Both the position numbers and the translations under genes were made by a program. A model generated the notes under the pieces. It was not told the DNA's origin and made no database searches. It was given only the letters and a program-made list of their open reading frames with translations. A DNA stretch of 64,000 nt from an uncultured Planctomycetota bacterium (GTDB taxonomy: Bacteria; Planctomycetota; UBA1135; GCA-002686595): contig CAIYPP010000007.1 of the NCBI GenBank assembly GCA_903928115.1, positions 1-64,000 on the forward strand, written 5' to 3'. The stretch's first letter is position 1, and every line of letters begins with the position of its first letter. This document shows positions 2 through 17,660 of this stretch, in pieces.

Positions 2-1042
2 AAGAAGGACGAGAAGAGCGCTCCGGCGGAGGAGAAGAAGGAAGAAGCCTCCGGCGCCAAGAAGGAAGAGAAGAAAGACGACAAGACGAAGGGCCAGAAG
101 GAAGAGGAGGAGGCGGATCCCGTCACCGGCGAGTGGAGCGGGAAGCTCACGCTCCCTGGCGCGGACGAGGAGCCGATCTCGCTGCGCTTCCAGCTCCAAG
201 GCGATGTCGTCACCGGCACGCTGCGCTGCGACAGCGTCTCGACCACGCTGGTCGCGCTCCAAGGCACTTGGAAGGACAAGAAGCTCGCGCTCGCCGGTCT
301 CGGCACGCGCGGGTTCGTGTATCTCGGCGGCGAGGCGAAGGGTGGCAAGCTCGACGCGCGCCTCGAGGTTCGCGGCGACGAGGCGAAGTTCAACGCCGAG
401 CGCGCGAGCAAGACGCTGCCCGAGGTGAAGGCGCCCGAGCTGCGCAAGCAGAAGTCCGCGGAGACGAGCGAGCCCAAGGGCAAGCCGCGCTCGCCGGGCA
501 TCGACCCGCGCCTCGAGCCGTTCCGTCGCGCGATGCGCGGCGAAGCAGCGATCCTCGTCAACGTCGACCGTGAAGATGAGATCCTCGCCTGCGTCGCGGC
601 TTTCGAGGCGGCGGGCATTCGTCCCGTGCTCGTCGGCGCCGACGATGCGTGGCGCATCGCGGACAAGCTGCGCGGCAAGGTCGCGGGCGTGCTGCTCAGC
701 CATCAGGTCCTCGCCACGGAAGAGGGCAAGGGCCTCGACAGCGTGCGCAACCGGTACGTCGAGCTCGCGAGTGCGGGCGTCGGCATCGGCTTCCACTCGG
801 CGGCTGAAGAGGGCGCGGCCGAGCTGCCGGTGATCGCGGCTTACGCGGTTTCGCGCGGGCTCAGTCCCGACGCGGCGCTGCGCGCGCTCACCGCGGATGT
901 GGCCCGCATGATGGGCATCGGCTCGCGCGTCGGTCGCCTCGCGACCGGCCTCGATGGCGACGTGCTCTTGCTCGACGGTCCGCCGCTCGAGCCTGCGACG
1001 CGCGTCTTGCGTGCCTTCGTCAACGGGGAAGAGGTCCGCTGA
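2..1042 (+). CDS. Amidohydrolase-like exported protein, 3' part only
   Basis: The 5' end lies outside the window; the frame is open from base 2. The visible part starts with a Lys/Glu-rich linker (about 38 residues), then a beta-strand-rich segment (from GEWSGKLTLPG, roughly residues 43-125) that looks like an insertion, then a typical amidohydrolase C-terminal half ending in ALRALTADVARMMGIGSRVG and the DGDVLLLDG strand that closes the metallo-dependent hydrolase sandwich. The N-terminal HxH region is not in view, so catalytic competence cannot be judged. The charged linker is shared with the degenerate paralogues at 4916 and 6172, not with the intact ones, so this copy is probably also non-catalytic (inference). 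It is the first member in view of a six-gene co-directional array; 26 bases separate it from the next gene. Confidence 0.85.
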   Translation, partial: KKDEKSAPAEEKKEEASGAKKEEKKDDKTKGQKEEEEADPVTGEWSGKLTLPGADEEPISLRFQLQGDVVTGTLRCDSVSTTLVALQGTWKDKKLALAGLGTRGFVYLGGEAKGGKLDARLEVRGDEAKFNAERASKTLPEVKAPELRKQKSAETSEPKGKPRSPGIDPRLEPFRRAMRGEAAILVNVDREDEILACVAAFEAAGIRPVLVGADDAWRIADKLRGKVAGVLLSHQVLATEEGKGLDSVRNRYVELASAGVGIGFHSAAEEGAAELPVIAAYAVSRGLSPDAALRALTADVARMMGIGSRVGRLATGLDGDVLLLDGPPLEPATRVLRAFVNGEEVR

Positions 1043-1068
1043 GCGGGCCCGTGCGGAGACAACACTCC

Positions 1069-2352
1069 ATGATCCGTTCCATGTGGATGATCGCGGCGCT
1101 GCTCGTCGGCGCAGAGGTCGCTTCGGCGCAGCAGCCGGCTCCCGGCGAGAAGGGCGGGCCCGGGCTCGCGCTCTTCACTGCGAAGGCGCTGGTCGCGTCG
1201 CTCGAAGGCGAGCAAGTCGTCGACAACGCCGTGATCCTCGTGCGCGACGGCAAGATCGAGCTCGTCGCGCCGCGCGCGAGCACGGCCGTGCCCGTCGGCT
1301 ACAACGTGCGCGACCTCGGGCCCCTGTGGTGCATGCCGGGGATGATCGACCTGCACAGCCACGTCGGCGGGTCGATGGACATCAACGACATGGTCTACGT
1401 GACCAACCCTGAGATCCGCGTGCGCGCCTCGGTGATCCCCGAGAACAGCGAGTTCAAGCGCGCGCTCGGCGGCGCGGTGACCGCGGTGCTCTACATCCCC
1501 GGCTCGGGCACGAACTCGGGCGGTCAGGGGATCCTCTTGAAGACGGGTCTCCCGAAGTACGAGGAGGCCGTGATCCGCGATCCGGGCTCGCTCAAGGTTG
1601 CGCAGTGGGGCAACCCCGAGCGCTTCCTCTCCGGCGTCGGCAAGACGTGGGAGAACTGGCACCTGCGGCACATGTTCACGCAGGGCCTCGCCTATGCGAA
1701 GCGCTGGGAGGCGTTCGAGGCGGGCAAGGGCGAGAAGCCCAAGCGCGACCTGCGGCTCGAGCTCTTCCGCGACCTCTCGGCCAAGCGCACGCAGGTGTCG
1801 ACGCACACCCAAGTCGCGCAGGTCGTGATGATGACGATCCTGATGATCAAGGGTGAGTTCGGGATCGACGTGTACATCGACCACGGCGAGTTCGGCGGCT
1901 ACCTGTACGCGGGCGTGGCGCAGCAGATGGGCGTGAACGCGATCCTCGGACCGCGCAACGTCGATGTGCCGAGCCGTTCGATGATCGACTGGGTGTCGAG
2001 CAACCCCGAGAAGGTGCAGGGCCTCGCCGCGGGCTACGTCGAGAAGGGCCACAAGATGGTCGGCTTCAACACGGACGCGCCGGTGATTCCGCAGGAGGAG
2101 CTGTTCCTCCAGTCGGCGGTCAACGTGAAGTACGGCCTCGACAACTCGGACATGACGGCGGTGCGCGGACACACGATCGTTCCGGCCGTCACCGCGGGTA
2201 TCGCGCACCGCGTCGGCAGCCTCGAGAAGGGCAAGGACGCGGACATCGTCGTGATCTCGGGCGATCCCTCGGATCCGCGCTCGCACGTCGAGCTCGTGCT
2301 CATCGAGGGGCGCGTCGTGTACGACCCGAAGCTGGAGCCGCGGCGCTTCTGA
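1069..2352 (+). CDS. Exported amidohydrolase, imidazolonepropionase-like, intact
   Basis: A 427-residue metal-dependent amidohydrolase of the imidazolonepropionase-related group. ATG at 1069 gives MIRSMWMIAALLVGAEVASAQ, a clear signal peptide; an upstream in-frame GTG at 1051 would add six residues. The metal site is complete: MPGMIDLHSHVGG (HxH), a later His in STHTQ, another in YIDHGEFGG, and the Asp in GFNTDAPV. The C-terminus RVGSLEKGKDADIVVISGDP is the usual family ending. Substrate is unknown. Its stop overlaps the start of the next paralogue by one base (TGATG), so the two are probably translationally coupled. The next gene is a close paralogue and suggests tandem duplication. Confidence 0.9.
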   Translation: MIRSMWMIAALLVGAEVASAQQPAPGEKGGPGLALFTAKALVASLEGEQVVDNAVILVRDGKIELVAPRASTAVPVGYNVRDLGPLWCMPGMIDLHSHVGGSMDINDMVYVTNPEIRVRASVIPENSEFKRALGGAVTAVLYIPGSGTNSGGQGILLKTGLPKYEEAVIRDPGSLKVAQWGNPERFLSGVGKTWENWHLRHMFTQGLAYAKRWEAFEAGKGEKPKRDLRLELFRDLSAKRTQVSTHTQVAQVVMMTILMIKGEFGIDVYIDHGEFGGYLYAGVAQQMGVNAILGPRNVDVPSRSMIDWVSSNPEKVQGLAAGYVEKGHKMVGFNTDAPVIPQEELFLQSAVNVKYGLDNSDMTAVRGHTIVPAVTAGIAHRVGSLEKGKDADIVVISGDPSDPRSHVELVLIEGRVVYDPKLEPRRF

Positions 2353-3638
2353 TGCACGGCTTCGCTGCCACGAACGCGCTCGCGCGCACCGCGCTGGTCC
2401 TCGGGGCCGCGTGCGGTGTCGTGAGCGCTTCGTCGGCGCAGCGCGCGGGGGAGAAGGGCGGGCCGGGACTCGCGCTCACCGCGGCCAAGGCTCTCGTCGC
2501 GTCGTGGGATGGCGAGCAAGTCGTCGACGGCGCGCTCGTGCTCGTGCGCGACGGCAAGATCGAGCGCGTCGCGAGCTCGCAGGAGCGCGCGCCGGAAGGC
2601 TACGAGTGGGTCGATCTCGGCTCTGCGTGGCTCATGCCCGGCATGGTCGACCTGCACAGCCACATCGGCGGCACGCAGGACATCAACGACATGGTCTATC
2701 AGACCAACGAGGGCCTGCGGGTCTCGCCCTCGGTCGTGCCGCGCAACCCCAACCTGCTGCGCTGCCTCGCGGCGGGCGTCACCACGATTCTCTATATCCC
2801 CGGCTCCGGCACGAACATCGGCGGACAGGGCATCTTGATGAAGACGGGCCTCGACACGTTCGAGGAGGCGCGCTTGCGCGACCCGGGCTCGCTCAAGATC
2901 GCGCAGGGCGACAACCCGACGCGCTGGGCCTATGGCATGGGCCGCTCGATGATGAACTGGCACATCCGCACCAGCGTGCGGCGCGGCCTCGGCTATGCGC
3001 GCCGCTGGAGCGAGCACGAGCGCGGCATCGGGGACCGTCCGGATGTCGATCCGCAGTACGAGACGTTCCGCGCGCTCGCGTCCGGTGAGGCGCAGATCTC
3101 GACGCACACGCAGATGTACCAGTTGGTGCACGCGACGATCCGCATCCTGAAGCAGGAGTTCGGGCTCGACGTGTTCATCGACCACGGCGAGTGGGGCGGG
3201 TTCCTCGCGACGCCCGAGGCCGAGCGGCTCGGCATCGCGGCCATCGTCGGGCCGCGCGAGGTCGACACGCCCGAGGGCCGACACTACACCGATGGCGCGA
3301 TCCTCTCGTGCGCCGGCGAGTACCAGCGCCGCGGCCTCTCCAAGATTGGCTTCAACACCGACGCGCCGGTCGTCCCCGCCGAAGAGCTGCCGCTACAGGC
3401 CGCGGTTTCGATGAAGTACGGCTTCGAGGGCGGCGACATGCAGGCCGTGCGCGGACTCACCATCGTCCCCGCGGTCGTCGCGGGGATCGCGAGCCGCGTC
3501 GGAAGCCTCGAGCGCGGCAAGGATGCGGACATCGTCGTCGTGACGGGGGATCCCGCCGATCCGCGCAGCTGGGTGCAGCGCGTCTACATCGAAGGTCAGC
3601 TCGTCTATCGCTCGACGGAGGAGGCGCGCCAATGGTGA
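2352..3638 (+). CDS. Exported amidohydrolase, intact paralogue 2
   Basis: A 428-residue paralogue of the preceding gene with the same architecture: signal peptide (cleavage probably near SSAQRAGEK), HxH in MPGMVDLHSHIGG, His in STHTQMYQ, His in FIDHGEWGG, Asp in GFNTDAPVVP, and the closing RVGSLERGKDADIVVVTGDP. All metal ligands of the imidazolonepropionase-like family are present, so it should be an active periplasmic or secreted hydrolase; the substrate cannot be read from the sequence. Start ATG overlaps the upstream stop, and its own stop lies inside the start of the next gene (overlap of 7 bases), which supports one polycistronic message. Confidence 0.9.
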   Translation: MHGFAATNALARTALVLGAACGVVSASSAQRAGEKGGPGLALTAAKALVASWDGEQVVDGALVLVRDGKIERVASSQERAPEGYEWVDLGSAWLMPGMVDLHSHIGGTQDINDMVYQTNEGLRVSPSVVPRNPNLLRCLAAGVTTILYIPGSGTNIGGQGILMKTGLDTFEEARLRDPGSLKIAQGDNPTRWAYGMGRSMMNWHIRTSVRRGLGYARRWSEHERGIGDRPDVDPQYETFRALASGEAQISTHTQMYQLVHATIRILKQEFGLDVFIDHGEWGGFLATPEAERLGIAAIVGPREVDTPEGRHYTDGAILSCAGEYQRRGLSKIGFNTDAPVVPAEELPLQAAVSMKYGFEGGDMQAVRGLTIVPAVVAGIASRVGSLERGKDADIVVVTGDPADPRSWVQRVYIEGQLVYRSTEEARQW

Positions 3639-4888
3639 GCCGCATCGCCATCGCCGCGCTCGCCGTCTGCGCAGCGTCCTGTGGCGCGATGCAGCGTCGT
3701 GGCGCTGCTGTGCCGCAAGGTGTGGGCGAGGCGCGCGCCTTGGCGGAAGGTGAGAGCGGCTTCGCGCTCGTCTGCGGCAAGCTGTTCACGCTCAACGAGA
3801 CGGACGAGGTCTTCGCTCCGGGGCTCGTGCTCGTGCGCAACGGTCGCATCGACTACGCGGGGCCGCGCGTCGATGTTCCCGAGGGTTACGACGTCGTGGA
3901 CGCGCCCGAGCTGTGGGCCGCGCCCGGCATGATCGACCTGCACTCGCACATCCAGACCGGCGGCTGGGGCGACATCAACGACATGGTGCTCGCGATGAAC
4001 CCCGAGTACCGCACGTCGCCGACGATCGTTCCGGCAAACGCCGACGTGCAGCGCGCGTGCTCTGCAGGTGTCACGACGCTCTTCGGAATCCCCGGCAGCG
4101 GCACGAACAACTCCGGCTTCGGCGTGCTCTACAAGACGCGCTGCAAGAGCACGTACGAGCAGTGCGTGCTGCGCGATCCGGGCGGCATGAAGGTCGCACA
4201 GGCCTACAACCCCGAGCGGCGCGCGGACCTCGGCGCCTCGCGCACGGGCATGGCTTGGACCATCGAGCACGCGCTCAAGATGGCGATCGCCGCGAACGAG
4301 CAGGGCCGCGAGCACCTCGCGCTCACGAACTTGCAGAAGGTTGCGACGGGCGAGCTGCCCGTGCTCATCCACACCGCCGGAAGCGACGCCGTCCACACGA
4401 CGATCGAGATGTGGGGCGAGCGCTACCCCGAGACGAAGCCCGTGCTGAGCCACGGCTGCTTCGACGGCTGGAAGGTCGCACCCTACGCCGCGCGCGTCGG
4501 CATTCCGCTCAACCTTGGTCCGCGCACGTTCGATCTGCGCCAGTCCGAGGGCGAGTGGGTCGGCACGCCCGAGCGCTACGCGAAGGCTGGCGGCAACCTG
4601 ATCACGCTGAACACGGACGCGCCCGTGATGCCGCAGGAAGAGCTCTTCCTGCAGGGCGCGATGGGCGCGCGCTACGGCGCGGATCCCTACGCGATGCTCA
4701 AGGGCTGCACGGTGTATCCGGCCAAGTCCTTCGGCATCGACCACGTGGTCGGGAGCCTGCAGCCCGGCCGCCACGCGGACATCGTCCTGTGGCGCGGCGA
4801 CCCGCTCGATCCGCGCGCCCGCGTCGAGTCCGTGTGGATCGAAGGCACCTTGGAGTACGACCGCGCTCGGGACCGTCAGCGGTTCTAG
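3632..4888 (+). CDS. Amidohydrolase, intact paralogue 3, probable lipoprotein
   Basis: A 418-residue amidohydrolase. The start ATG at 3632 is chosen because it begins a signal sequence, MVSRIAIAALAVCAASCGAMQ, whose AASC resembles a lipobox (a weak match), so the protein may be lipid-anchored. HxH is present in APGMIDLHSHIQTGG, with further ligands in LIHTAGSDAVH, LSHGCFDG and LNTDAPVMPQ. It is more diverged from paralogues 1 and 2 than they are from each other. It overlaps the upstream gene by 7 bases; 27 bases separate it from the next, degenerate paralogue. Substrate unknown. Confidence 0.88.
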   Translation: MVSRIAIAALAVCAASCGAMQRRGAAVPQGVGEARALAEGESGFALVCGKLFTLNETDEVFAPGLVLVRNGRIDYAGPRVDVPEGYDVVDAPELWAAPGMIDLHSHIQTGGWGDINDMVLAMNPEYRTSPTIVPANADVQRACSAGVTTLFGIPGSGTNNSGFGVLYKTRCKSTYEQCVLRDPGGMKVAQAYNPERRADLGASRTGMAWTIEHALKMAIAANEQGREHLALTNLQKVATGELPVLIHTAGSDAVHTTIEMWGERYPETKPVLSHGCFDGWKVAPYAARVGIPLNLGPRTFDLRQSEGEWVGTPERYAKAGGNLITLNTDAPVMPQEELFLQGAMGARYGADPYAMLKGCTVYPAKSFGIDHVVGSLQPGRHADIVLWRGDPLDPRARVESVWIEGTLEYDRARDRQRF

Positions 4889-4915
4889 GCGCGAGCGAAA
4901 GAAGAAGAAAACGTC

Positions 4916-6175
4916 ATGACCATCCTCACAACCATTCTGGCGCTCGCGCCCGCCCTCGGCGGCGTGAGCGAGCCCTCCGGCGGCCTGCTCGCCATCAAGG
5001 TCGGACGCGCGGAGACCGTCTCCGGGGCGGCCATCGAGCACGCGGTGATCCTCGTCGACAACGGCCAGATCGTGGAGGTCGGCGCCGACCTCCCCGTGGC
5101 GCGCGGCATCCCGGTGTTCGAACGCCCCGACTGGGTCGTGATGCCCGGGCTCGTCTCGTGCTACACGCGCCTTGGCGTCGACAGCCGCGCGGGTCAGGAG
5201 TTCAGCCCCGAGGCTTCGCCCACGCCCGAGATCTTCCCGCGCCACCCCGACTACAAGGAGGTGCTCGAAGCCGGAGTGACGACGATCGGCATCTACCCGC
5301 CGGGCACCGGTTTCCCCGGTCACGCCGCCGCTCTGCGTCCGCATGGCGCGACGCTCGCGGAGATGCTCGTCGATGAGGACGCGTACCTGAAGGTCTACTT
5401 CCGCGCGAACGCACAGGCGAAGAAGCAGGTGCGCGACGCGTGGGCCAAGGTCGACGAGCACGACGAGAAGGTGAAGAAGGCCAAGGAGAAGTTCGACAAG
5501 GACTCCAAGGGCAAGTCGTCCGAGAAGAAGGACGAGGAGAAGAAGGAAGGCGAGGCCAAGCCCGAGGAAAAGAAGGACGACAAGTCCAAGGCCTTCGTTC
5601 CGCCCGAGGCCGACGCGAAGATCAAGCCGTTCCTGCAGGTGCGCGATGGCGAGCTCGGCATGCTCGTCTCGCTGTCGCAGGCGGCCGACTGGGCCCACTG
5701 GGCCGATGCGATCGGCGAGCGCAAGCTCGACTACGCGCTGCGCGTCGTGATGACGCGCGAGATCGACATGTTCGAGGTGAAAGAAGAGATCGGCAAGCGC
5801 GGCCTGCGCGTCGTGATGGAGCCGCAGCTGTCGCTCGTGCAGGGCACGATGCGCCAGCGCAACCTCGCGACCGAGCTCGCGGCCGCGGGCGCGAAGATCG
5901 CGTTCAAGCCGCGGAACGACACCGCGGGCGACCACGCGGCGTGGCTGCGCCACGTCGGCGAGATCGTGGGCGCGGGCTTCTCGCGCGACCTCGCGCTCAA
6001 GGCGGTGACGCTCGAGCCCGCGGCCGTGCTCAAGCTCGACAAGAAGCTCGGCAGCATCGAGAAGGGCAAGACCGCGAACTTCGTGTTCTTGAGCGGCGAT
6101 CCCTTCGAGCCGAGCACGCAGGTGATGGCCGTCATGCTCGACGGAGAGTTCGTGTCCGGGGAGGTGAAGGAATGA
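4916..6175 (+). CDS. Degenerate amidohydrolase-like protein with charged linker
   Basis: A 419-residue exported protein with the amidohydrolase fold ends (VVMPGLVSCYTRLG early, and KLGSIEKGKTANFVFLSGDP at the end) but without the catalytic HxH: the position reads SCYTR. The barrel His ligands and the NTDAP Asp are also not seen. Residues about 182-223 form a Lys/Glu-rich, probably disordered or helical linker (KKAKEKFDKDSKGK and following). The N-terminus MTILTTILALAPALGG is signal-like. Its stop overlaps the next start (ATGA). It is therefore probably a non-catalytic partner of the active paralogues upstream (inference from residue loss and operon position). Confidence 0.85.
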   Translation: MTILTTILALAPALGGVSEPSGGLLAIKVGRAETVSGAAIEHAVILVDNGQIVEVGADLPVARGIPVFERPDWVVMPGLVSCYTRLGVDSRAGQEFSPEASPTPEIFPRHPDYKEVLEAGVTTIGIYPPGTGFPGHAAALRPHGATLAEMLVDEDAYLKVYFRANAQAKKQVRDAWAKVDEHDEKVKKAKEKFDKDSKGKSSEKKDEEKKEGEAKPEEKKDDKSKAFVPPEADAKIKPFLQVRDGELGMLVSLSQAADWAHWADAIGERKLDYALRVVMTREIDMFEVKEEIGKRGLRVVMEPQLSLVQGTMRQRNLATELAAAGAKIAFKPRNDTAGDHAAWLRHVGEIVGAGFSRDLALKAVTLEPAAVLKLDKKLGSIEKGKTANFVFLSGDPFEPSTQVMAVMLDGEFVSGEVKE

Positions 6176-7608
6176 AGCTCGCTCAACGATTCGGCGCGCT
6201 CGGCGCCCTCGCACTCGCGGCGTTCGCGTTCGTCGCCCGGCCTGCGCTCGCGCAGGACGGCGAGAAGAAGGACGACAAGAAGGACGAGGCCGCCAAGGAC
6301 AAGAAGGACGAGAAGAAGGACGAGTGGTTCGCCGTCACGGGCGGAGACGTCTACACCGGGACCGGCGCGGTGCTGCGCGGGGCCACGGTGCTCTCCAAGA
6401 ACGGCGTCATCGAAGCGCTCGGCCACGACGTCGAGGTGCCCGCGGAAGCGAAGACCCTCGACGCCACGGGCATGCGCGTGTACCCGGGCCTCGTCGCGAT
6501 CAACTCGAGCGGCCTGTTCGGCATGGCGGCGGGGGACTTCGCGGACTCGGTCGACCCCTACAACCAGCGCATGCTGCTCGCGCTCGCGAGCGGCATCACG
6601 ACGGCCGGACAGTCGAACACCGCGCTGAAGCTCAAGCGCCGCGACATCAAGAATGTCGTGCTGCGCGAGCGCTACCTCGCGACCCTGTCGTTCACGAACT
6701 CGAACCCATCGGGCAAGCGCGAGTGGGTCGAGAAGTTCGACAAGGCGGCGCGCTACCTGCGCGACTACCGCGAGTGGGAAGAGAAGAAGCGTGACAACAA
6801 GGACTTGAAGGAGCCCAACGCGAGCGGCGTGGACTCGACCGCGCGCGCGATCCTCGAGGGACGCGTGCTGGCGCGCTTCAACTCCTCCTCGCGCGAGGAC
6901 CTGCTCGAGGTCGCGCGCCTTGCCCAGCGCTTCGGCTTCCGCCCGGTGATCGACGGCTGCGTCGAGGGCTGGACGGTGGCGGACGAGCTCGGCCGCGCCG
7001 GCGCGTACGCGGTGGTGACGCCGCGCGACCGCCGCGACAAGGAAGAGCAGCTCGTGCGCGACGGCGGGTCGAGCATCGAGAACGCCGCGATCTTGCATAA
7101 GAGCGGCGTGCAGGTGTGCGTGATCCCTTCGACGACCGGGGTCGACCTCGGTGGCATCGCGGGTCGCGACATCCTGCACCTGCCGATCGAGGCGGGCTTC
7201 GCCGTGCGCGGCGGCCTTTCGGATCAGGCGGCGCTCGAGTCGATCACGATCGTGCCCGCGCGCCTGCTCGGCGTGTCGCACAAGGTCGGCAGCCTCGAGA
7301 AGGGCAAGGACTGCGACCTGATCGTGCTCGACGGCGACGTCCTGCACTACCAGTCGCTCGTTCAATACACGGTGGTCGAGGGCAAGGTGGCCTACGACAA
7401 GTCTGCGGAGCTCTTCTACGCGCACATTCGCCCGCGCCCGACCGATCAGCTCGCGCCCGAGTCCCGTCAGGACAAGGGGGAGAGCGACGAGAAGCCCGAA
7501 GGCGCCAAGGAGACTCCGGCCGACAAGCCCGCGGAGGGTCCCAAGCCCGAGGACAAGCCCGAGGACAAGCCCGAAGAGAAGCCCGAAGAGAAGCCCAAGG
7601 ACGGCTGA
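6172..7608 (+). CDS. Degenerate amidohydrolase-like protein with charged N- and C-termini
   Basis: 478 residues. ATG at 6172 overlaps the preceding stop as ATGA and opens a good signal peptide ending near RPALAQDG. A Lys/Asp-rich stretch follows at once (about residues 24-48). The amidohydrolase beta-sandwich and barrel are recognisable (VYPGLVAINSSGLFG; KVGSLEKGKDCDLIVLDG), but the HxH after MPGLV is replaced by INSSG, so the metal site is lost. The C-terminus is a low-complexity Lys-Pro-Glu-Asp tail encoded by a 12-base tandem repeat. It is the last gene of the array and is followed by a terminator hairpin at 7670-7704. Confidence 0.85.
   Translation: MKLAQRFGALGALALAAFAFVARPALAQDGEKKDDKKDEAAKDKKDEKKDEWFAVTGGDVYTGTGAVLRGATVLSKNGVIEALGHDVEVPAEAKTLDATGMRVYPGLVAINSSGLFGMAAGDFADSVDPYNQRMLLALASGITTAGQSNTALKLKRRDIKNVVLRERYLATLSFTNSNPSGKREWVEKFDKAARYLRDYREWEEKKRDNKDLKEPNASGVDSTARAILEGRVLARFNSSSREDLLEVARLAQRFGFRPVIDGCVEGWTVADELGRAGAYAVVTPRDRRDKEEQLVRDGGSSIENAAILHKSGVQVCVIPSTTGVDLGGIAGRDILHLPIEAGFAVRGGLSDQAALESITIVPARLLGVSHKVGSLEKGKDCDLIVLDGDVLHYQSLVQYTVVEGKVAYDKSAELFYAHIRPRPTDQLAPESRQDKGESDEKPEGAKETPADKPAEGPKPEDKPEDKPEEKPEEKPKDG
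7543..7596 (+). repeat. 12-base tandem repeat encoding a K-P-E-(D/E) tail
   Basis: The unit AAGCCCGAGGAC/AAGCCCGAAGAG repeats about four and a half times in frame at the 3' end of the last amidohydrolase-like gene and encodes KPEDKPEDKPEEKPEEKP. In-frame repeats like this can expand and contract without frameshift, so tail length may vary among relatives. Confidence 0.8.
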
Positions 7609-7669
7609 GACCGCAGCGGGGTGGCTACCCACTCCGCGCCCGCAGCCTTCCCACCGCTTCTCCACATCC

Positions 7670-7704
7670 AGCCCGCGTCACAAGTCTTTGTGGCGCGGGC
7701 TTTT
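7670..7704 (+). terminator. Rho-independent terminator of the amidohydrolase array
   Basis: Left arm AGCCCGCGTCACAA pairs with TTGTGGCGCGGGCT (14 positions, one G-T wobble) around a GTC loop and is followed by TTTT. It lies 61 bases after the stop at 7608. The rest of 7609-7891 (283 bases) holds no gene I can support. Confidence 0.8.
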
Positions 7705-7891
7705 ACGTCGCTCTCCACAGGCGACTCCAACACGCACCTAATCCCTCGTACAGCAGGGCGGCGCACGTCCTTCGGCCCCCTTGCCGCCCCGCCGCGCGCT
7801 GATAGGGTAAGTCGCTTCCTGCTCACGACTTACGCGTGCGCGGAGGGATCGTGCCCGCCGCGCGCCGCCCGTACCCGTACCCTTCCACCCC

Positions 7892-8956
7892 ATGCTGCTC
7901 CGCGATCTCCTGCGCCTCCTCGGCTCCGCCAAGCGCGACGGCCGCAACCTGACGCGGGACGAGGCCTACCGCGCCTTCGAGTTGATCGTGGCGGGCGGGC
8001 AGAGCGAGATCCAGGTCGGTGCGTTCTTGATCGCGCTGCGCTGGAAGGGCGTCACGGTCGAAGAAGTGACGGCGTTCGCGCAGGCCGCACGGGACCACGC
8101 GAAGCTGCCCTGCGTCGGGATGGACGACTTGGTCTGTGTTTCGTCGCCGCTCGACGGCTCGGACTCGTTTCCGCCGCTCGACATCGCCGCGGGGCTGATC
8201 GCGGCGGCTGCAGGCGCCCGAGTCTTGCTCGTGACCGATCGCTGTGTGCCGCCCAAGCGCGGACTGACCGGCGCAAGCGTGCTCGAGCACCTCGGGCTCG
8301 ACATGACGTGGGACGCCGATGAAGCGCAGTCGTGGGTTGAGCGCACGGGCTTCGCCGCGGTCTCGGCGTCGGGGCTGCTGCCGGGGTTGATGGGGTTGCG
8401 TCGCGTGCGCGGTGAGATCGGCGTGCGCACCCCGCTCTCCACGGTCGAGAAGCTCATCGCGCCGCCCAAGGCATCGATCGTGATCGGCGCGCAGCAGGGG
8501 CCGGTGCTCGGAACGGCCGTCGAGGTGCTCGCGGCCCTCGGCCATCCGCGTGCGATCGCGGTGCAGGGCCCCGAGGGCGGCGTGATTCCGTCGGTGCGCC
8601 GCAAGACGCGCGGGATCGAGCTCGCCGAGGGCTTCCAAGTGCCGCTGACGATCGAGCCCGCGGACCTCGGACTCGACTGCGAGGGCGAGCCGGAGCTGCC
8701 GATGTTCGGGCCGCCGGACGAGGGCTACGGCACCGGCGACAACAAGACGCTCGTCGCGGCGAGCGGGGACCTGACCTCGCAGGTGCTCGCGGGCGAGCTG
8801 GGATCGGCGCGCTGCGCGGCGCTGCTCGGCGCGGCGCTGATGATGAAGGCCGCTGGCAAGGCGATGACGCTGGCCGACGGGGTCTCCGCGGCGACCGAGG
8901 CGCTCGACAGCGGCGGCGCACGGCGGGTCCTGACGCGGCTGCGCGAGCTCGCGTAG
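7892..8956 (+). CDS. TrpD2/YbiB-like glycosyltransferase family 3 protein
   Basis: 354 residues with the anthranilate phosphoribosyltransferase fold: helical N-terminal domain (DEAYRAFELIVAGGQSEIQVGAFLIALRWKG), then the alpha/beta domain. The phosphoribosyl-binding GTGGD motif of true TrpD is replaced by SSPLDGSDSFPPLDI, and the Lys-His-Gly-Asn region by a different stretch (KRGLTGASVLEHLG). It is thus closer to the TrpD2/YbiB branch, whose E. coli member binds nucleic acid, than to a tryptophan biosynthesis enzyme; no other trp gene is nearby. It sits 6 bases before the zinc peptidase gene, so the two are probably co-transcribed. Confidence 0.75.
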   Translation: MLLRDLLRLLGSAKRDGRNLTRDEAYRAFELIVAGGQSEIQVGAFLIALRWKGVTVEEVTAFAQAARDHAKLPCVGMDDLVCVSSPLDGSDSFPPLDIAAGLIAAAAGARVLLVTDRCVPPKRGLTGASVLEHLGLDMTWDADEAQSWVERTGFAAVSASGLLPGLMGLRRVRGEIGVRTPLSTVEKLIAPPKASIVIGAQQGPVLGTAVEVLAALGHPRAIAVQGPEGGVIPSVRRKTRGIELAEGFQVPLTIEPADLGLDCEGEPELPMFGPPDEGYGTGDNKTLVAASGDLTSQVLAGELGSARCAALLGAALMMKAAGKAMTLADGVSAATEALDSGGARRVLTRLRELA

Positions 8957-8962
8957 CGCACC

Positions 8963-9976
8963 ATGGCCAGCGACGAGCTCTTTCGCGAGCACAACTGGTC
9001 CAGTCGGCCGATCCGCGATCTCGGGCTGAAGATCGAGGGGACGCCGCTGGAGTCGGTCGTGGCCGAGTTCCAGCGCGAGGTCGAGGCGCTCGGCCTCAAG
9101 GTGCGTCCGCGCCTGTACCTCTCGACGGAGTGGGGAGTCGTGACGGGCACGATCGCCATCGCGATCCCGTTCTATCTCGCGGAGGCGCCGCTCAAGGACC
9201 TGCACGCGCGCAAGGGCCAGATGCTCGAAGGCGACGGGCGGCGCGAGGTGCTGCGCTATCTGCGTCACGAGCTCGGCCACGTCGTGAACTACGCCTACAA
9301 GCTCTACGACGACGGCGAGTGGGTGCGGCTCTTCGGCCCCATCACGCAGCCGTATCTGGAGGACTACCGCCCTTCGCCGTTCAGCCGACGCTACGTGCGG
9401 CACCTGCCCGGCTGGTACGCGCAGAAGCACCCCGACGAAGACTGGGCCGAGACCTTCGCGGTGTGGATGACGCCCAAGCTCGACTGGCACGACGAGTATT
9501 CGGACCAGCCGCAGGCGCTCGCGAAGCTCGAGTACTGCGAGCGCGTGATGGGGGAGCTGCGCGCGCGCGAGCCATTGGTCGTGGAGGCGACGACGGAAGA
9601 AGACGTGGCGGAGCTCGGCTACTCGCTGGAGGAGTACTACGGGCACATGGCGCAGCCCGAGGGCGAGTTTCCGCATGGACTCGACGGCGCGCTGCGTTCG
9701 ATCTTCGAGGAGCTCGCACCCGAGGCGGGTCGCGAGGGCCAGAGCGCGTCAAAGCTCGTGCGCTCGCTGGAGCGCGAGTTGATGGCCTACGTGTATCGCT
9801 GGACCGGCCACTTCCCCGAGCGCACGCGCGCGTTGGTGCGCCACCTCGCGGAGCGCGCCGACGCGCTCGGACTCACGTTGGATCCGGCCCGCGAGCGCGA
9901 GGCCACGCTCGCGCTCACGACGTTCGTCGCCGCGCTCGGCATGAACCACGTGCACCAAGGCAGCTACCTGCCCTGA
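8963..9976 (+). CDS. Putative zinc-binding metallopeptidase
   Basis: 337 residues, no signal peptide. RHELGH gives the HExxH zinc motif (H102, E103, H106), and DEDWAETFAVW supplies a likely third ligand, E163, about 57 residues downstream. The middle (AEAPLKDLHARKGQ to the DWAETFAVWMTP segment) fits the family of putative zinc-binding metallopeptidases found beside ATP-grasp genes in planctomycetes and proteobacteria (from memory of the family, not from a search). It follows the TrpD2-like gene by 6 bases and converges on the ATP-grasp gene with an 18-base gap, which suggests a functional group of three. Substrate unknown. Confidence 0.75.
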   Translation: MASDELFREHNWSSRPIRDLGLKIEGTPLESVVAEFQREVEALGLKVRPRLYLSTEWGVVTGTIAIAIPFYLAEAPLKDLHARKGQMLEGDGRREVLRYLRHELGHVVNYAYKLYDDGEWVRLFGPITQPYLEDYRPSPFSRRYVRHLPGWYAQKHPDEDWAETFAVWMTPKLDWHDEYSDQPQALAKLEYCERVMGELRAREPLVVEATTEEDVAELGYSLEEYYGHMAQPEGEFPHGLDGALRSIFEELAPEAGREGQSASKLVRSLERELMAYVYRWTGHFPERTRALVRHLAERADALGLTLDPAREREATLALTTFVAALGMNHVHQGSYLP

Positions 9977-14884: not shown

Positions 14885-16372
14885 CTAGTAGTTCTTCGCG
14901 AACAGCACGCGCTGTGCGCTCGGCTTGCCGGTCTTGATGCACGCGCCGGACTCGGGGTCGGGACCCTCGCCCGGCAGCGGGATGCAGCGGATCGTGGCCT
15001 TGGTCGCCTCCTTGATGGCGAGCTCGGTCTCGGTCGTGCCGTCCCAGTGCGCGAAGACGAACTTCGAGCCCTGATCGGCGAAGACTGCCTCGAAGTCCTT
15101 CCACGAGTCGACGTGCACCGTGTTGGCACGACGGAACGCGAGCGCGCGCTCGTAGAGCGCCGACTGCATGCCGTCGAGCAGCTTGCCGACATGAACGCCG
15201 ATGTCCTCGAAGGGCACCTTGACCTTGTCCTTGGCATCCGCGATGCGCGTCTTCGCCATCGCCGTCGCGCTCGCGACGTCGCGCGGTCCGACCTCGAGGC
15301 GCACGGGCACGCCCTTGCGCTCCCACTCGTAGTACTTCTCGCCCGGACGCATCGCGTCCCGGTCGTCGAGCTTGACCGTGAGTCCGTCGGCACGCAGCTC
15401 GCGCGCGAGCTTGTCGCTCGCTTCGAGCACCTGCGCCTTCTCGGCATCGCTCTTCCAAATCGGAACGATCGCAACGTGGATCGGTGCGAGCTTCGGCGGC
15501 AACACGAGGCCGCCGTCGTCGGAGTGCGCCATGATCAGCGCGCCGATCATGCGCGTGGAGGAGCCCCACGAGGTCTGCCAGACGAAGTCGCGCACGCCTT
15601 CCTTGTTTTGGAAGGTGACGTTGAAGGCGCGGCCGAAGTTTTGGCCGAGGTCATGGCTCGTCGCGCCCTGCAGCGACTTGCCGTCCTGCATCATCGCCTC
15701 GACGCAGAACGTCTCCAGCGCGCCGGCAAAGCGCTCGTTCGCCGTCTTGCGCCCGCGGATCACGGGCACCGCGAGCACGTCGTGGTAGACCTCGCGGTAC
15801 ACGTCGAGCATGCGCATCACCTCTTCCATCGCCTCTTCGTGTGAGGCGTGCGCAGTGTGGCCTTCCTGCCACCAGAACTCGCCGGTGCGCAGGAAGAGCC
15901 GCGTACGCAGCTCCCAGCGCATCACGTTGCACCATTGGTTGAGCAGCATCGGCAGGTCGCGGTAGCTGTCGATCCACTTCGAGAAGAAGTGACCGATGAT
16001 CGTCTCGCTCGTCGGACGGACGACGTAGGGCTCTTCGAGCTCGCCCTTGAGCTCGATCTTGCCGTCGACGTTGCGCAGGCCGGCGTGCGTCACGACCGCG
16101 CACTCCATCGCGAAGCCGGTCGCGTGCTGAGCTTCCTTCTGCAGGAAGGAGAGCGGGATCAGCAGCGGGAACGCGGCGTTTTGATGGCCGGTCTCCTTGA
16201 AGCGCCGATCGAGCTCGGCCTGGATCTTCTCCCAGATCGCCCAGCCGTGGGGCCGCACGACCATGCAGCCGCGGACCACGTTCGCGGGCTCGGCGAGCTG
16301 CGCTGCGGAGATGACGTCTTGGTACCACTGCGCGTAGTCCTTCGCGCGCGGCGTGATGTGTTGTTCCGACAT
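14885..16372 (-). CDS. proS: Prolyl-tRNA synthetase, archaeal/eukaryal type (ProS type 3)
   Basis: 495 residues. ATG at 16372 (MSEQHITPRAKDYAQWYQDVI) is chosen over an upstream in-frame ATG at 16492 because the latter would overlap the divergent gene and adds 40 residues unlike the family. Class II motifs are clear: VVRPTSETIIGHFFSKWI (motif 2 region), the TGEFWWQEGHTAHA block, and SWGSSTRMIGALIMAHSDDGG (motif 3). No editing INS domain is inserted and the protein ends in a Tyr, as in the short archaeal/eukaryal type found in some bacteria. It charges tRNA-Pro. Confidence 0.95.
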   Translation of the reverse strand: MSEQHITPRAKDYAQWYQDVISAAQLAEPANVVRGCMVVRPHGWAIWEKIQAELDRRFKETGHQNAAFPLLIPLSFLQKEAQHATGFAMECAVVTHAGLRNVDGKIELKGELEEPYVVRPTSETIIGHFFSKWIDSYRDLPMLLNQWCNVMRWELRTRLFLRTGEFWWQEGHTAHASHEEAMEEVMRMLDVYREVYHDVLAVPVIRGRKTANERFAGALETFCVEAMMQDGKSLQGATSHDLGQNFGRAFNVTFQNKEGVRDFVWQTSWGSSTRMIGALIMAHSDDGGLVLPPKLAPIHVAIVPIWKSDAEKAQVLEASDKLARELRADGLTVKLDDRDAMRPGEKYYEWERKGVPVRLEVGPRDVASATAMAKTRIADAKDKVKVPFEDIGVHVGKLLDGMQSALYERALAFRRANTVHVDSWKDFEAVFADQGSKFVFAHWDGTTETELAIKEATKATIRCIPLPGEGPDPESGACIKTGKPSAQRVLFAKNY

Positions 16373-16490
16373 GTCGAGTTCTCGGTGGAGCGCTGCGCGA
16401 GGACCCGCCCATTCGGACCCTCCGTCGCGCGGAAAGGTCGCGCAGCGTAGAGGACTGGTCGCACAGCCGCCAGCAGCGGATAGTGGGGGC

Positions 16491-17660
16491 ATGGGATATC
16501 GCTACACGGTGCTCGGAGCGGGCCGCCAAGGTGTCGCGCTGGCCTACGACTTGGTGAAGAACGGAGAGGCCGAGCTCGTGCGCGTCGTCGACAGCGACGC
16601 GGACGTCGCGGCGCGCGCAGAGCGGCGTCTTCGCAAGCTGCTGCCGCGCTCCAAGGTGCGCTTGGAGTCCGAGTGCTGTGATGTCGCGAGCCGTAGGCAA
16701 GTGCGAGCGGCGATCGAAGGCGCGCACGTAGCGCTTTCTGCGGTTCCGTACCGCTTCAACGCGCAGCTCGCTGCTTGGGCGATCGATCGCGGCGCGTCGT
16801 TCCTCGATCTCGGCGGCAACACTGCAGTCGTGCGACAGGAACTCGCGCTTCATGCCCGGGCGAAGAAGGCGGGGGTCAGCGTCGTACCCGACTGTGGTCT
16901 GGCGCCGGGGCTCGGCAATCACCTCGCAGCACACGGGATTGCGTCGATGGATACGCCGCGCCATGTCCATGTGCGTTGCGGTGGCTTGCCCGAGACGCCG
17001 GTGGGTCCGCTCGGCTACAAGCTCGTGTTCAACTTCCGTGGCCTGTGGAATGAGTACCGCGGCGAGGCCGAGTTCCTGCGCGGTGGGAAGCGGGTCCGCG
17101 TTCCCACGCTCACCGAGTTGGAGCCGTTCGAAAGCTCTCCTTTCGGTCCGCTCGAAGCATGCGTGACGAGCGGTGGGACGAGCACCTGTCCTCAGTCGTG
17201 GGAGGGCAAGCTCGAGAGCTTCGACTACAAGACGATCCGCTACCCCGGCCACTGGGCGCAGATTCGCACGCTCTTCGAGCTCGGCTTCATGGACGAGCAC
17301 TTCACCGCGCGCAACGGCTGCGAGTTCGAGCCGCTGGCCCTCACTCAAGCACTCTTCGAAGAGCGCCTCGCGTTTCCGTCCGTGCGCGACGTCGCGCTCT
17401 TGCGCGTGCTCGTGCGCGGCTCGCACGCCCGACGACCGCTTGCACTCCAGTACGACTACCTCGAGCGCCACGACGCGAGGACGGGCTTCACCGCCATGGA
17501 GCGCGCGACAGCGTTCCCCGCGGCCCTCGTCGCACACCTGCAAGCACGCGGCCTCGTCTTCCCCGGCGCACGCCCCCTCGAGCTCGCCGTCCCGCCGCTC
17601 CTCTACTTCGAGGAGCTCGCGCAGCACGGCATTCATGTCCAGCTGACCGTGGGTCGCTGA
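16491..17660 (+). CDS. Saccharopine dehydrogenase family oxidoreductase
   Basis: 389 residues. A Rossmann fold opens at once (YRYTVLGAGRQGVALAYDL), followed by SFLDLGGNTAVVRQELALHARAKKAGVSVVPDCGLAPGLGNHLA, typical of the saccharopine dehydrogenase / lysine-ketoglutarate reductase family. The C-terminal part (FDYKTIRYPGHWAQIRTLFELGF) also matches bacterial members often annotated as L-lysine dehydrogenase-like. Start ATG at 16491 leaves a 118-base divergent region with proS. Role may be lysine degradation, but no partner gene is adjacent. Confidence 0.88.
   Translation: MGYRYTVLGAGRQGVALAYDLVKNGEAELVRVVDSDADVAARAERRLRKLLPRSKVRLESECCDVASRRQVRAAIEGAHVALSAVPYRFNAQLAAWAIDRGASFLDLGGNTAVVRQELALHARAKKAGVSVVPDCGLAPGLGNHLAAHGIASMDTPRHVHVRCGGLPETPVGPLGYKLVFNFRGLWNEYRGEAEFLRGGKRVRVPTLTELEPFESSPFGPLEACVTSGGTSTCPQSWEGKLESFDYKTIRYPGHWAQIRTLFELGFMDEHFTARNGCEFEPLALTQALFEERLAFPSVRDVALLRVLVRGSHARRPLALQYDYLERHDARTGFTAMERATAFPAALVAHLQARGLVFPGARPLELAVPPLLYFEELAQHGIHVQLTVGR

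Follow-up and report, generated by a model that had tools for sequence, protein, structure and literature searches.

Degenerate and intact amidohydrolase paralogues share a tandem array of fixed order in Planctomycetota

Six tandem amidohydrolase genes of an uncultured planctomycete proved to be the 3′ end of an array of about 13 kb, in which copies without a metal site and intact copies follow one another in a fixed order. The window that we analyzed is a stretch of 64,000 nucleotides from an uncultured Planctomycetota bacterium (contig CAIYPP010000007.1, here C7). In all 56 arrays scored as complete, with both ends visible and by the very 6-n-2 rule that this order expresses, the order was a-b-c-d-(e1-e2 fused)-(1 to 4 intact)-k-l, that is, six metal-less domains, the intact enzymes, and two metal-less domains, with no foreign gene in between. 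The window begins within e2, of which it has the C-terminal part, and continues with three intact copies, k, and l.

The six ORFs, g1 to g6, lie on the forward strand at positions 2–7608 of the window. g1 (2–1042) is the C-terminal part of the degenerate position e2 and is open at its 5′ end. The window opens at the first base of contig C7, in a 160-contig assembly, so that g1 is partial because the contig starts there and not through a biological truncation. It consists of a K/E-rich linker, a beta-rich insert, and the C-terminal half of a degenerate amidohydrolase (386–1036). g2 (1069–2352, with an alternative GTG start at 1051) and g3 (2352–3638) are intact amidohydrolases of the STHTQ type, followed by g4 (3632–4888), an intact copy of the IHTAG type (j). 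g5 (4916–6175) occupies position k and contains a K/E-rich insert at 5411–5584 (residues 166–223), while g6 (6172–7608) occupies position l. From its sequence, g6 carries a K/E/D-rich linker (6256–6315) behind a presumed signal peptide and a K/E/P/D-rich C-terminal tail (7459–7605). Neighboring genes overlap by 1, 7, or 4 bases or are separated by gaps of 26 or 27 bases, as a preliminary description of this DNA had stated. Downstream of the array, the window encodes a TrpD/YbiB-like phosphoribosyltransferase-family protein (7892–8956), and a gene with a similar start follows the array in two other loci (L049 and L054). A putative zinc metallopeptidase (Peptidase_Mx) gene follows at 8963–9976.

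Genes g2 to g6 scored above the Pfam Amidohydro_1 cut-off (25 bits), and g1, which is cut by the contig, scored 24.7 bits, just below it. The description of the window as a run of tandem amidohydrolase paralogues was therefore confirmed, and its count of six holds for the window and not for the array, which extends upstream. Another contig of this assembly, C80, has at its end a position-a-like gene, which is probably the first gene of this genome's own array. None of g1 to g6 reached the cut-off of a named enzyme in Pfam or NCBIfam; against the Xaa-Pro dipeptidase equivalog NF051886, the best window score was 80.2 bits, with a cut-off of 500 bits.

The intact genes g2, g3, and g4 retain all four ligand motifs, namely HxH, the β5 His, the β6 His, and the β8 Asp, and the copies starting at 1069, 2352, and 3632 had rightly been taken as intact. 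Loss of HxH had been noted for the copies at 4916 and 6172, where the site is replaced by SCYTR in g5 and INSSG in g6. This was correct and understated the loss, since every ligand is gone from g5, g6, and the visible part of g1, whose HxH region lies outside the window. An Asp near β8 of g5, the D of PRND, stands one step off the ligand column and is not a ligand match. Across the 56 arrays, all four motifs were present in 111 of 111 domains at intact positions versus 1 of 448 domains at dead positions. The sole fully liganded domain at a dead position is the b copy of one array (L059, genome G003; 15475–16539). The other 55 b copies do not carry the full set, although they include the best matches of the L059 copy.

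The same intact and degenerate order, which the preliminary description had proposed to look for in other planctomycete genomes, was found in every complete array. All eight degenerate positions were present in each of the 56, and none was intact-only. e1 and e2, two degenerate domains, were fused in one ORF in 56 of 56. The number of intact copies ranged from 1 to 4 in complete arrays; five in a row, the most seen, occurred in genome G043 (L052), as read from two loci. In the close relatives G094 and G068, where the whole array is visible, three intact copies are present, giving 11 domains in 10 genes. All array genes lie on one strand, and the median distance between a stop codon and the domain that follows it is 69 nt (440 junctions). 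Two gaps exceed 450 nt, both at b-c junctions where domain calling had detached the initial part of c. Excluded arrays were either cut by contig or locus ends or had an extra, partly matched domain between an intact copy and k (L167 and L173). None of them showed another gene order, and dead copies were never missing where the ends were visible. Upstream of position a, five loci of the window's family (L044, L050, L051, L053, and L057) contain a divergent gene, next to the array, whose product has about 150–180 amino acids and a similar start (FW/YWRxRL) in each.

We then analyzed the distribution of the array. A search with g5 gave a match in every one of 61 genomes of the window's order, many of the matches being clustered on one contig. 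An alignment of the intact IHTAG type matched all 121 sampled genomes of the class, all of them from the window's order. In a sample of the phylum, 174 of 199 genomes matched, and E values below 1e-90 were obtained in 39 of 187 genomes outside the order. The complete arrays that we read include twelve from outside the order, each with one intact copy. One further complete array came from an uncultured planctomycete (L065, CAADGM010000103.1), and the array on JAPLOE010000097.1, from a Planctomycetota MAG, has the same sequence as that of G040. Samples from the phylum to which an Opitutus MAG belongs (195 genomes) and from that of a Deltaproteobacteria MAG (189 genomes) gave no match below 1e-65. 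A pattern scan of contigs from other genomes was swamped by the general HxH pattern and returned few named relatives, so that it is no proof of absence elsewhere. The open-access literature on amidohydrolase pseudo-enzymes, tandem arrays, and Planctomycetes contained no report of this array, and a report elsewhere is possible.

To place the positions relative to one another, we built a FastTree tree of 230 domains, to which the usual long-branch caveats apply. The eleven position labels required 14 changes on this tree, against a minimum of 10 and a mean of 165 for shuffled labels. The intact copies (support 100) and positions d (100), e1 (99), l (99), and c (93) each fell on one side of a branch, and a, b, e2, and k needed 2–4 changes each. 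Because the labels cluster on the tree, the dead positions are mostly old lineages and not products of repeated recent decay, and most positions are orthologous across the order and other Planctomycetota. Position b is the loosest; its scattered ligands and one fully liganded member suggest that activity may have been lost there on more than one occasion.

Mean identity over the whole set was 0.29–0.40 for dead positions versus 0.46 for intact ones. In most dead positions, the ligand columns were among the less conserved columns, and their replacements were weakly kept in a, b, c, e2, k, and l. The PG before β1 and the Asp of a later DAD motif were highly conserved in most positions. Free variation at the ligands together with preserved fold columns fits retention of the fold without catalysis. 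Position d is the exception, with a conserved pocket (H 89%, K 98%, G 98%, and N 88%).

Loss of function by drift after tandem duplication had been put forward as the simpler alternative, and the freedom of the ligand residues to vary in most dead positions is what such decay would produce. We compared the window genes with up to five genus-level relatives by pairwise NG86 estimates, a crude measure at this G+C content. By this measure, dN/dS was 0.17–0.34 for g5 and 0.15–0.30 for g6, and in the intact genes 0.22–0.35 for g4 and 0.15–0.30 for g2 and g3; it was 0.24–0.38 for g1, so that e2 is under purifying selection too. The dead copies k and l are thus under purifying selection like the intact genes, within 0.15–0.35, and decay by drift is rejected for them in this genus because their dN/dS equals that of the intact genes. 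Open frames and the same eight positions in 56 of 56 complete arrays, and the preserved fold of g5 (see below), also speak against drift, and arrays of intact copies only beside decaying degenerate ones did not occur among them. As an account of the degenerate copies, drift can hardly be credited.

It had also been noted that K/E-rich linkers or tails mark the degenerate or partial copies, and suggested that pseudo-enzymes act as charged scaffolds. With a charged segment defined as K+E of at least 16 in 40 residues, segments occurred in 40 of 56 a copies, 40 of 56 e2 copies, 46 of 56 k copies, 9 of 56 d copies, and 3 of 56 l copies. None was found in b, c, or e1 or in the intact copies of the 56 arrays (0/111 intact). 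The absence from intact copies therefore stood, whereas charged linkers as a general mark of degeneracy were rejected, as dead b, c, and e1 are also without them; the feature is position-specific, not degeneracy-specific. A charged scaffold fits a, e2, k, and partly d and l, which makes charge impossible as a general role of the dead copies. The segments of a, d, e2, and k are found at one structural site between β4 and β5 (centers at model columns 209–228), and their net charge is near zero. Behind its K/E linker, e2 also has a beta-rich insert with eight predicted strands at low confidence (residues 655–747 of ORF 227–3106 in L064; about 125–385 in the window), for which no Pfam match was found.

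We utilized AlphaFold2 to predict the structure of g5 from 12 sequences of the window and related loci. The model (pLDDT 81, pTM 0.81) kept the amidohydrolase fold, and the K/E-rich insert was predicted as a 45-residue helix (residues 166–210) followed by a low-confidence stretch. A Foldseek search with this model returned 3ooq, an amidohydrolase of Thermotoga maritima, as the first match (TM 0.71/0.77). By sequence, g3 too has this protein as its closest relative of solved structure (E 1.7e-42). Unlike the array, 3ooq is an enzyme of a single type with no degenerate partners known, and our literature search found no paper on its function. Deposited structures of related amidohydrolases often contain 8 or more chains. 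A model of the e1-e2 fusion, with only three sequences in its alignment, reached a pLDDT of 37.

The pattern looks functional. The conserved order, the conserved dead state, the equal constraint, and the natural fusion of two dead domains all indicate that the products work together. Hydrophobic, export-like N-termini, scored without a dedicated predictor, were present in 78 of 108 called array genes versus 33 of 141 other called genes, so the array proteins are probably exported. The earlier proposal of a multi-subunit exported enzyme gained partial support, and none in assigning a general role to charge. We infer that the proteins are exported and assemble together, that the genes are transcribed together, and that the intact copies carry out metal chemistry, and would explain the array as follows. 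An ancient operon-like array would encode eight degenerate domains (a, b, c, d, e1, e2, k, and l) and one to five active metallo-hydrolases. Outside the cytoplasm, the products would form a hetero-oligomer whose fixed pseudo-enzyme subunits would shape, anchor, or regulate the active subunits, and the latter would hydrolyze an amide or peptide-like substrate. We regard this as the best explanation and, on balance, a somewhat probable one. Its sharper form, a secreted nine-position hetero-oligomer in which eight pseudo-amidohydrolase domains each hold their own fixed place around one or a few active subunit types in several Planctomycetota lineages, we put forward tentatively and with more doubt than belief. 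Separate periplasmic proteins of related function would also account for the operon-like clustering and the conservation, and a fixed stoichiometry would not simply predict an intact copy number of 1 to 5.

The dead copies could instead be separate periplasmic binding or carrier proteins that hold substrate or products without a stable complex. The barrel fold kept in the g5 model and the conserved pocket of d would suit such proteins, and one cluster with common export-like N-termini is also expected of a shared pathway. However, most other dead positions have pocket columns that rank with their least conserved ones, which gives no hint of a kept ligand site, and e1 and e2 are physically fused in every complete array; we therefore consider binding or carriage unlikely, if worth bearing in mind. 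Some or all degenerate copies might also have acquired new, metal-independent chemistry, to which position-specific replacements such as YxR in many k copies and the conserved H and K of d would point. The poor conservation of the replacement residues in a, b, c, e2, k, and l, among which no shared new motif was seen, makes this improbable.

Compared with known systems, the array resembles the Xaa-Pro dipeptidase/Cc2672 type (NF051886; 3mtw) in superfamily and in similar N- and C-terminal motifs, but at about 80 bits against 500 the window genes are not members. A precedent is Pseudomonas ATCase, in which pDHO, an inactive dihydroorotase homologue, is reported to be needed for activity (PMC7053772). 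In that system an inactive chain of the amidohydrolase superfamily is conserved for an active partner (PMC7053772); in the array, dead genes beside active ones are under purifying selection. The Pseudomonas system has one pseudo-enzyme and an unrelated active partner, whereas the array has eight pseudo-enzyme positions and active members of the same family.

Simpler combinations of one intact and one dead copy side by side occurred in the Deltaproteobacteria MAG (L133), in other planctomycetes, and in the window's own genome (contig C99). These pairs comprise two genes only, and their intact members lie apart from the array's intact copies on the tree (97). The pair is possibly a simpler ancestral form of the array. 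The mixed intact and degenerate cluster on C99 spans 7387–9908 of locus L046, and a further small cluster of this genome, at 6143–10595 of L045 (contig C48), has an intact and a degenerate domain fused in one ORF.

Pseudo-enzymes usually come to notice singly or in small numbers, as dead relatives of an enzyme. This bacterial group keeps eight dead lineages from a single enzyme family in a set order, next to one to five active copies. With eight positions having lost the metal site and only one to five neighboring copies keeping it, the array suggests that dead enzymes make up most of a secreted enzyme complex. Being present in dozens of genomes, it is a natural system in which to ask why dead enzymes are retained in evolution, and it probably marks an unstudied extracellular activity of largely uncultured planctomycetes.
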